NCBI GenBank assembly: GCA_944377745.1
Contig: CALWFV010000021.1
Coordinates: 1-52,085, forward strand
Source: an uncultured Mediterraneibacter sp.
Lineage (GTDB): Bacteria > Bacillota > Clostridia > Lachnospirales > Lachnospiraceae
Direction: 5' to 3'
Length of the DNA: 52,085 nt
Position numbers and translations under genes: made by a program
Part shown: positions 45,276 through 46,202 of the stretch, piece after piece
Layout of the letters: the number at the start of each line of letters is the position of its first letter
Position numbering within the stretch: the first letter of the stretch is position 1
Notes under the pieces: generated by a model
The model's database searches: none
The model's input: the letters and a program-made list of their open reading frames with translations, nothing else
What the model was told of the DNA's origin: nothing

Positions 45276-45285
45276 TCTTTTCCAA

Positions 45286-45371
45286 TGCCGCAGACCGGAA
45301 TCGAACCGGTACGGGTATCACTACCCACGGGATTTTAAGTCCCGGGCGTCTGCCAGTTCCGCCACTGCGGC
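45286..45371 (-). tRNA. tRNA-Leu (anticodon UAA)
   Basis: 86 bases. Acceptor GCCGCAG pairs with CTGCGGC, discriminator A. Anticodon loop CTTAAAA within GGGA/TCCC gives anticodon TAA. The long variable arm (GTGGGTAGTGATACCC region) is that of a class II tRNA. CCA is not encoded. It is the last gene of the operon. Confidence 0.95.
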
Positions 45372-45408
45372 AGCTATAAAATTTTCATTCTCTTATCTCT
45401 AAGAGAAA

Positions 45409-45482
45409 CGACCCAGAAGAGACTCGAACTCTCGACCTCCGCCGTGACAGGGCGGCGCTCTAACCAACTGAGCCACTGGGCC
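45409..45482 (-). tRNA. tRNA-Asp (anticodon GUC)
   Basis: 74 bases. Acceptor GGCCCAG pairs with CTGGGTC (one G-U), discriminator G as expected for Asp. Anticodon loop CTGTCAC inside CCGCC/GGCGG gives GTC. CCA is not encoded. Confidence 0.95.
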
Positions 45483-45483
45483 T

Positions 45484-45574
45484 CGCTATGAGCACTTAGC
45501 GACCGTACTTTGGTCGCTTACGTGCGATGCATGTCGCCGCCGTTAGCAAGGTACTTTCGAGCTTACAAGGCGAC
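45484..45574. repeat. tRNA-spacer hairpin element, copy A
   Basis: Begins CGCTATGAGCACTTAGCG. Stem I: GCAC..GCGACC (loop GTACTTT) GGTCGC..GTGC. Then GATGCATG and stem II, GTCGCC (45533-45538) with GGCGAC (45569-45574), enclosing GTTAGC/GCTTAC. It lies next to tRNA-Asp and head to tail with copy B. Confidence 0.85.
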
Positions 45575-45575
45575 T

Positions 45576-45668
45576 CGCTATGAGCACTTAGCGTCTGTAT
45601 TTTAGACGCTTATGTGCGATGCATGCCGGCATCCTTAGTAATCGCACACGCGAACTTAGCATCCGGCA
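45576..45668. repeat. tRNA-spacer hairpin element, copy B
   Basis: Same opening 18 bases as copy A. Stem I inner helix is GCGTCT/AGACGC instead of GCGACC/GGTCGC, a compensatory three-pair change. Stem II is TGCCGG (45624-45629) with CCGGCA (45663-45668), different from A but still paired. Confidence 0.85.
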
Positions 45669-45673
45669 CGAAA

Positions 45674-45747
45674 TGGACCTTCGGGGACTCGAACCCAGGA
45701 CCGACCGGTTATGAGCCGGTTGCTCTAACCAACTGAGCTAAAGGTCC
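45674..45747 (-). tRNA. tRNA with CAU anticodon (tRNA-Ile2 or elongator tRNA-Met)
   Basis: 74 bases. Acceptor GGACCTT/AAGGTCC, discriminator A. Anticodon arm ACCGG-CTCATAA-CCGGT gives CAT. The body resembles the Firmicutes tRNA whose C34 is changed to lysidine to read AUA (Ile2), but elongator Met cannot be excluded by eye. The T stem is CTGGG/CCCCG, with one U-C mismatch at pair 50-64. CCA is not encoded. Confidence 0.85.
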
Positions 45748-45772
45748 AAAAAACCTGTTCCCGAAGGAACAA

Positions 45773-45845
45773 AGCCGATGATCGGACTCGAACCGATAAC
45801 CTGCTGATTACAAATCAGCTGCTCTGCCAATTGAGCCACATCGGC
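45773..45845 (-). tRNA. tRNA-Thr (anticodon UGU)
   Basis: 73 bases. Acceptor GCCGATG/CATCGGC, discriminator U. Anticodon arm GCTGA-TTTGTAA-TCAGC gives TGT. CCA is not encoded. A short hairpin, GTTCC-CGAA-GGAAC, lies in the spacer after it (45758-45770). Copy C of the hairpin element lies directly upstream, and a rearranged relative lies at 45955-46029. Confidence 0.95.
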
Positions 45846-45846
45846 G

Positions 45847-45940
45847 CGCTATGAGCACTTAGCGACCGTACTTTGGTCGCTTATGTGCGATGCCTGCCGA
45901 CGCCCTTAGTGAGCATGAAATGCGAACTTAGTAGTCGGCA
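45847..45940. repeat. tRNA-spacer hairpin element, copy C
   Basis: Opening as in A and B. Stem I is GCGACC/GGTCGC. Stem II is TGCCGAC/GTCGGCA, enclosing GCAT-GAA-ATGC with flanking CTTAGT/ACTTAGT. It is one base from the tRNA-Thr 5' end. Confidence 0.85.
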
Positions 45941-45954
45941 TATTTAATTTTTAC

Positions 45955-46029
45955 GCAGAGCGGCTGATTTGTAATCAGGCTCTGCCTGCGATTGACGTGG
46001 TCAATCTTATTGAATTGAGCCACATCGGC
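45955..46029 (-). pseudogene. Rearranged tRNA-Thr remnant
   Basis: On the minus strand the first 17 bases (GCCGATGTGGCTCAATT) equal tRNA-Thr. An insert of about 25 bases with a GATTGAC/GTCAATC hairpin (45990-46006) follows. Then comes GGCAGAGC, also from the tRNA, and the anticodon arm in reversed orientation (CTGATTACAAATCAG in place of CTGATTTGTAATCAG), closed by GCAGAGC/GCTCTGC. The T arm and 3' acceptor strand are missing, so it cannot work as a tRNA. Confidence 0.75.
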
Positions 46030-46030
46030 G

Positions 46031-46124
46031 CGCTATGAGCACTTGGCGACCGTACTTTAGTCGCTTACGTGCGATGCCTGCCGACGCCCTTAGTGAGCAT
46101 GAAATGCGAACTTAGTAGTCGGCG
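46031..46124. repeat. tRNA-spacer hairpin element, copy D
   Basis: Nearly identical to copy C, with a few substitutions (ACTTGGCG for ACTTAGCG, TTTAGTCGC for TTTGGTCGC, TTACGTGC for TTATGTGC). Stem II as in C. It joins the tRNA-Thr remnant exactly as C joins the intact tRNA-Thr, pointing to a tandem duplication. Confidence 0.85.
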
Positions 46125-46130
46125 CGCTAC

Positions 46131-46202
46131 TGACCCCGACGGGAATCGAACCCGTGTTACCGCCGTGAAAGGGCGATGTCTTAACCGCTTGACCACGGGG
46201 CC
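46131..46202 (-). tRNA. tRNA-Glu (anticodon UUC)
   Basis: 72 bases. Acceptor GGCCCCG/CGGGGTC (one G-U), discriminator A. Anticodon loop CTTTCAC within CGCC/GGCG gives TTC. CCA is not encoded. It is the first gene of the operon, directly behind the promoter at 46242-46270. Confidence 0.95.

Follow-up and report, generated by a model that had tools for sequence, protein, structure and literature searches.

Small mobile repeats are usually thought to land loosely in intergenic DNA. The described kinds nearest to the repeat reported here are the bcr repeats and the REP/BIME elements, each of which has at least one defining feature that we looked for and that is absent from the new family. Two accounts (PMC6542083, PMC3446304) describe bcr1–bcr18 of the Bacillus cereus group as intergenic repeats of 100–400 bp that are restricted to this group and display traits of mobile elements; some of them have a conserved secondary structure and are present in 5' UTRs, and their mobility has been tied to a TTTAT motif. 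REPs, according to PMC3733652, are tagged by GTAG or CGTC, are frequently found next to RAYT genes and are thought to be mobilised as hairpins. The bacterial stem-loop survey of Cozzuto et al. 2008 (PMC2267715) reports intergenic repeats with a common fold, many of them ~70–170 bp long, for example in Clostridium; other species were covered there, rRNA- and tRNA-related clusters were removed, and these repeats are set apart from the present ones by description only.

The locus studied here lies in the window, that is, the whole 52,085-nt stretch of DNA analysed, which comes from an uncultured Mediterraneibacter sp. Its repeat differs from bcr in forming arrays of ~92–95-nt units with two hairpins (I and II), in being often flush with the starts of RNAs and in its host family. 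TTTAT does precede some units located before tRNA-Asp, where it belongs to the native tRNA-Met/Asp spacer, and is absent at the Hungatella edges read. Like REP/BIME sequences, the units are short imperfect palindromes that form arrays and are dispersed; unlike REPs, they had no neighbouring Y1 gene in the loci searched. No GTAG or CGTC was seen by eye at the hairpin foot in 37 aligned units, and in Diplocloster GTAG occurs near the mismatch step of hairpin II. As regards the marks of a MITE, the inverted repeats are internal to each hairpin; the Diplocloster units are followed by TAAAAAAT, which resembles the units' own first bases. The rtT repeats of the Escherichia coli tyrT operon, which carry tRNA 3'-end sequence, are likewise repeats in a tRNA operon; the units of the window have no Rfam match over them. 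No description of this two-hairpin family was found in the literature searched.

Four two-hairpin units in a tRNA operon

The original prediction of four copies of a two-hairpin element, in sense with the tRNAs of an operon, was borne out. The units fill spacers of the operon and were scored with R1, a covariance model built from 37 aligned units. The features are:

45285..45372, minus strand: tRNA-Leu(UAA), last gene of the operon in sense
45409..45482, minus strand: tRNA-Asp(GUC), downstream of copies A and B
45483..45574, minus strand: copy A, a full unit, with hairpin II at 45533–45574 and then hairpin I at 45484–45530; R1 109.2 bits
45575..45668, minus strand: copy B; R1 93.4 bits
45673..45748, minus strand: tRNA-Met(CAU)
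45773..45845, minus strand: tRNA-Thr(UGU), downstream of copy C
45846..45940, minus strand: copy C; R1 102.3 bits
45941..46029, minus strand: tRNA-Thr-derived pseudogene in the C–D spacer, identified by eye
46030..46124, minus strand: copy D; R1 98 bits
46130..46203, minus strand: tRNA-Glu(UUC), first gene of the operon in sense

As delimited in the original prediction, the copies lie at 45484–45574 (A), 45576–45668 (B), 45847–45940 (C) and 46031–46124 (D). All five tRNAs lie on the minus strand, in the order Glu-Thr-Met-Asp-Leu, and the RNA strand of the units is therefore the minus strand, on which hairpin II is followed by hairpin I, a tail of ~9 nt and then the tRNA. By these coordinates, A and C lie 1 nt off the 5' ends of tRNA-Asp and tRNA-Thr, respectively; as listed above, both are flush with those ends, and D with the start of the pseudogene that follows it. 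Copy B starts 4 nt past the 3' end of tRNA-Met and stands in direct tandem with A before tRNA-Asp; D starts 5 nt past the 3' end of tRNA-Glu and is 1 nt away from the tRNA-Thr-like pseudogene. Transcription of the units together with the tRNAs, which had also been proposed, agrees by position only.

The opening CGCTATGAGCACTTAGCG, expected to be common to all copies, is exact in A–C and has one mismatch in D; with up to three mismatches allowed it was found four times, against 0.06 expected. Compensatory changes in the stems were seen as predicted, apart from the last stem I pair of D, which is C.A on the plus strand and U.G in the RNA sense. Folding z-scores on both strands of the four copies ranged from −1.67 (D, plus strand) to −4.65 (C, plus strand), D being the weakest fold on either strand. 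A BLAST search of the same genome (E≤0.001) returned no copy beyond these four, and weaker covariance-model matches add distant relatives.

The pseudogene at 45941–46029 (minus strand) appears by eye to consist of the 5' part of tRNA-Thr, an added hairpin and an inverted anticodon arm. In the collected set, locus L013 has two related pieces and L065 has one, and remnants are present in L012 and L015.

Anatomy and covariation

Arrays have the form I-(II-I)n; in the genus set n is 0 to 2, and some arrays begin with hairpin II. The two hairpins are alike in design. A lower stem leads to a UAA/UAA step, whose A.A mismatch is fixed and is kept in both hairpins in 37/37 units, and an upper stem follows. 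A 7-nt loop close to AAARNAC closes hairpin I and one class of hairpin II, six AAARNAC forms accounting for 94 of the 156 distinct hairpin I sequences. In hairpin I a GCAC/GTGC stem is kept and the upper stem varies on both sides. The CGCTA/TAGCG alternative fold suggested by the original prediction does not hold as a general feature, given that the Cys subfamily ends in ...TACTCA and that a covarying pair, 50/93 (C-G 17, G-C 12, U-A 6), favours another pairing.

Across the 37 units, 93.7% of the cells are paired and double changes occur in 16 of the 28 pairs. None of 500 shuffles reached the observed covariation on four of five measures; together with the copy number this rules out chance or an assembly artefact. 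The remaining measure is reversed, with 27 further standard pair types against 31.2 in the shuffled alignments (499/500), as expected if G.U pairs are rare. The prediction of a structured repeat family is thus supported by strong covariation and by many further copies, which in the genus lie mostly beside tRNA genes.

Distribution in Lachnospiraceae

BLAST (E≤0.001) found the unit in 31 of the 58 genomes of the genus Mediterraneibacter. Searching genus and family with a covariance model, the check proposed with the original prediction, yielded many copies: R1 (E≤0.01) matched 50 of the 58 genus genomes, many of the matches being weak. In the family it matched 100 of 397 genomes, which represent 87 of the 334 genera. 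Family-wide copy numbers are at-least values, drawn from ten scored candidates per genome. In a class-wide sample (E≤1e-5) 5 of 391 genomes matched, and all five are Lachnospiraceae, the window's own family, whereas bcr is confined to the B. cereus group. Among named genomes, a pattern scan gave at least 119 stretches, including ones in Hungatella effluvii, Diplocloster and Enterocloster; the named hosts among the matches listed are Lachnospiraceae or records titled only as clostridia.

Carriage by phages or plasmids was rejected, since no copy was found in the viral contigs searched (no match to one exact pattern) or among 50,697 phage and 72,556 plasmid records (no match to copy C). At Rfam 15 gathering scores the window contains tRNAs alone, and the matches in two sets of further element loci (12 and 11) were to tRNA, T-box and 16S only, none of them over the unit. 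A permissive scan of 45470–46140 gave six matches, all on or around the tRNAs, other families falling far below their cut-offs. In the loci scanned, the unit accordingly matches no Rfam 15 family, in line with the expectation that the element had no name.

Position at the 5' boundaries of RNAs

In the genus, 54 of the 61 arrays listed are followed by a same-strand tRNA, which is tRNA-Cys in 33 arrays, tRNA-Asp in 12 and tRNA-Thr in 9; the count leaves out the loci of the window's own genome (L001–L011), save that the C–D stretch of the window is entered twice. The distance from the end of hairpin I to the tRNA is 8–10 nt in 42 of the 51 arrays in which it was measurable (three of the 54 were not). 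As this is the length of the element's own tail, most arrays are flush with the tRNA. Single copies at tRNA-Cys sit between a promoter-like sequence, recognised by eye, and the tRNA. One of the seven other arrays is copy D of the window, and six have common flanks. The gene behind the array was read in four of those six loci. In one (L033) it is metG, encoding methionine--tRNA ligase, and the unit lies inside the metG T-box leader; the T-box (RF00230) still scores 59.1 bits (E=3.6e-12, cut-off 93) and is the host RNA of the unit, which is not part of the T-box fold.

Of 88 distinct copies outside arrays in the named loci, 27 directly abut a Shine-Dalgarno sequence that has a start codon behind it. 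For random positions drawn from those loci, coding DNA included, this was so in 1604 of 100000 cases (1.6%; p=4.5e-27). The 88 copies derive from 113 matches, of which 109 were left after removal of duplicates and cut ends, and 21 of these were array-internal. Ten genes behind units were scanned and nine could be named (metG, adk, etfB-like, argG, pyrG, clpB, fabG, maf and hydF); the nine have no common theme.

Among the more divergent R1 matches listed, six stop exactly one base short of 5S rRNA; they come from three genomes and represent fewer than six independent events. The 5S search matched 6 of 58 genomes, and 18 of the 19 loci fetched were read, L415 being left out. At 16S rRNA, one R1 match (L096) runs 8 nt past the start of the 16S model, and two further loci (L400, L408) are alike by sequence. 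Overall, the 3' edge of the unit is often flush with the 5' boundary of a tRNA, 5S rRNA or Shine-Dalgarno sequence, and the left edge varies. The right-edge rule has exceptions: Diplocloster units have an AT-rich right edge, and two copies in Enterocloster MAGs (L170, L181) face a T-box leader of the opposite strand. An element specific to tRNAs is ruled out by the Shine-Dalgarno, 5S, 16S and T-box sites.

Filled and empty sites

The junction before an etfB-like gene is filled in one genome (G417) and empty in another (G103); GGAGG is kept, and the ~10 nt preceding it are not the same in the two. At adk, the junction is filled in M. agrestimuris (L168) and holds no unit in 30/30 other loci of the genus, read from 42 genomes that matched the query (at least one of the 42, G054, did so only through the unit). 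These 30 loci contain 11 weak R1 matches (17–32 bits) in nine loci, none of them at the junction. The nine loci (L359, L364–L367, L376, L383, L386, L387) possibly hold distant relatives of the unit.

The tRNA-Met/Asp spacer is TTTAT in L335. In L342 one unit is added to TTTAT, and L338 has five hairpins in this spacer; the L335/L342 pair represents a clean insertion with no loss of sequence. Insertion is not always clean: in two cases filled and empty sites disagree over the ~10 nt that precede GGAGG or 5S. Both states can also be found within one genome, G018 having three filled and two empty 5S sites and G002 one of each. At another site in G103, a chimeric hairpin has arisen via a deletion between two AAAAGAC loops.

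Wobble pairs in the hairpins

If a folded RNA were under selection, G.U should exceed A.C among the non-Watson-Crick combinations. In 936 cells of hairpin I (156 distinct stems) there were 21 G.U and 24 A.C, against 94 and 6 in 1486 cells of tRNA stems from the same loci (Fisher p 4.6e-10); this control comprised the acceptor stems of 123 of 125 distinct tRNAs, plus T stems where found. Split by context, the G.U:A.C ratio in hairpin I stayed near one, with counts of 8:5 for tRNA-flush, 3:6 for Shine-Dalgarno-flush and 10:17 for other copies. Over all 28 pairs of the 37 units the counts were 18 and 31, falling to 5 and 14 when pairs 49/94, 19/28 and 20/27 were left out. The safe positions of hairpin II gave 3 G.U and 2 A.C in 258 cells. 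At its outer positions, which were paired without gaps and are not trusted, G.U was commoner (e.g. U.G 18 at one position), and this speaks against a DNA-level reading. RNA-like features are also present in the U.G at columns 8/39, kept in 36 of the 37 units, and in the G.U at pair 49/94, found in 12 of the 37; the flush placement at RNA starts likewise counts against a DNA-level reading.

The near-equal numbers in hairpin I indicate that its pairing is not plainly kept as that of a wobble-tolerant RNA. Either the pairing may be kept as DNA, or old copies may decay freely while masters keep their pairing; equal counts of G.U and A.C could equally stem from neutral decay of copies. Strong covariation alone is no proof of function at the RNA level, as hairpin I covaries without the wobble signature of the tRNA stems in the same loci.

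Nature of the element

In our view the units are copies of a mobile but non-autonomous family of hairpin-bearing repeats in Lachnospiraceae, and we put the probability of this reading at roughly two in three. The family is dispersed and has both filled and empty orthologous sites, which are the general marks of a mobile repeat. A trans-acting enzyme would recognise the hairpins by their sequence and Watson-Crick shape, probably as single-stranded DNA, and would place the unit directly on the 5' side of the target; arrays would then grow and shrink in tandem via recombination between repeats, and the insertion would be tolerated because the downstream functional RNA stays intact. The targets differ in sequence, being GGAGG, tRNA starts, TTTGGTGG or, in Diplocloster, AT-rich DNA, and no DNA motif common to the first three is evident. 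Against this reading, the Y1 search found no transposase with the repeat family. A mobile palindromic repeat that targets tRNA spacers was among the alternatives of the original prediction; it is the one that fits best, although its target was drawn too narrowly, because elsewhere units are also found at Shine-Dalgarno sites, at 5S and 16S and in a T-box leader. Within the genus, many of the tRNA positions are shared by different species, which fits vertical inheritance and a possible function; a processing or protective role at tRNAs is conceivable.

The flush right edge at tRNA, 5S and Shine-Dalgarno starts could instead reflect a cis-acting RNA, in which precursor hairpins stack on the 5' end of the RNA and guide 5' processing or block 5'-to-3' decay. 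The sense orientation of 54/54 genus tRNA arrays, the strong covariation, the conserved U.G and the single tRNA-Cys copies placed behind promoter-like sequence all agree with it. We nevertheless regard it as unlikely, as the element is patchy, with orthologous spacers that may be 5–6 nt long without it, and as the two Enterocloster copies face a leader on the opposite strand; a purely RNA-level reading is further weakened by the absent G.U preference in hairpin I. That same absence, the imperfect hairpins with a fixed mismatch, the two hairpins on one plan in the same direction and the lack, by eye, of target-site duplications in three filled/empty comparisons would suit a REP/BIME-class element that an IS200/IS605-type (RAYT) HUH transposase moves by acting on its hairpins in single-stranded form. 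Y1 (PF01797) genes were indeed present in 6 of 10 genomes searched, but G338 and G448 gave no PF01797 match despite 10 and 8 model matches, no unit lay at the ten Y1 places searched of 15, and the unit is far longer than the 20–40 bp given for REPs in PMC3733652. A Y1/RAYT mover is therefore unsupported, Y1 being neither consistently present nor accompanied by a unit at those ten places, and assignment to the class seems improbable.

Insertion could also be templated by RNA, a reverse transcriptase at a processed RNA 5' end switching to the element RNA and the cDNA recombining into the genome. This would amount to a bacterial SINE-like system in which a ~95-nt element RNA is joined by template switching to the 5' ends of tRNA, 5S, 16S and ribosome-protected mRNA, its DNA copies thereby landing with single-base accuracy at RNA 5' boundaries throughout the genome, an idea to which we give small odds. 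It would explain why the right edge meets the 5' ends of unrelated RNAs while the left edge is variable, as well as the copies made of hairpin I only and the replacement of some native sequence. The reverse transcriptase is putative, however, and none is linked to the repeat family; it has to be assumed that mRNAs are processed to a 5' end at the Shine-Dalgarno sequence; the AT-rich Diplocloster sites and the opposite-strand T-box sites are not obvious RNA 5' ends; and the TTTAT pair is a clean insertion without loss. RNA-templated insertion is accordingly decidedly doubtful. Hardly credible is a riboswitch or attenuator recruited to many operons: a structured leader with conserved loops directly before ribosome-binding sites would fit, yet the nine named genes behind units share no theme and the unit also precedes tRNAs. 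The kept U.G and the clean TTTAT insertion take slightly from the weight of both the mobile-repeat reading and RNA-templated insertion.

As a mobile repeat, the family would be of interest because, across a large gut-bacterial family, many of its copies lie at the exact starts of tRNAs, 5S rRNA or ribosome-binding sites; this raises the testable question of what marks an RNA 5' boundary for a moving element. It also offers a tool for genome comparison: fixed sites can be scored for whether they hold a unit, arrays by their length, and the rrn operons of a single genome as filled or empty.

Related repeats at other loci

Several loci contain parts of the unit in other settings. G338 has a longer repeat that lies before genes (L165, L180, L190, L192, L203, L216) and harbours the unit, at one position in six of seven repeat copies and at another in L216; Rfam gave no match to this longer repeat in L165, L192 and L216. 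In four genomes (L402, L403, L404, L406), hairpin II-type arrays are followed by a conserved stretch starting ACGGTGCAA before the gene start. The window's own genome has a hairpin II-type array (L393, G000:C6:28800-29500) before a stretch that looks by eye like a T-box and resembles, again by eye, the metG leader of relatives. On three contigs of the same genome (C6, C61 and C59; L394, L395 and L407), the hairpin I core tips another, longer multi-copy palindrome, and partial matches of this kind are also present in other genomes of the genus.
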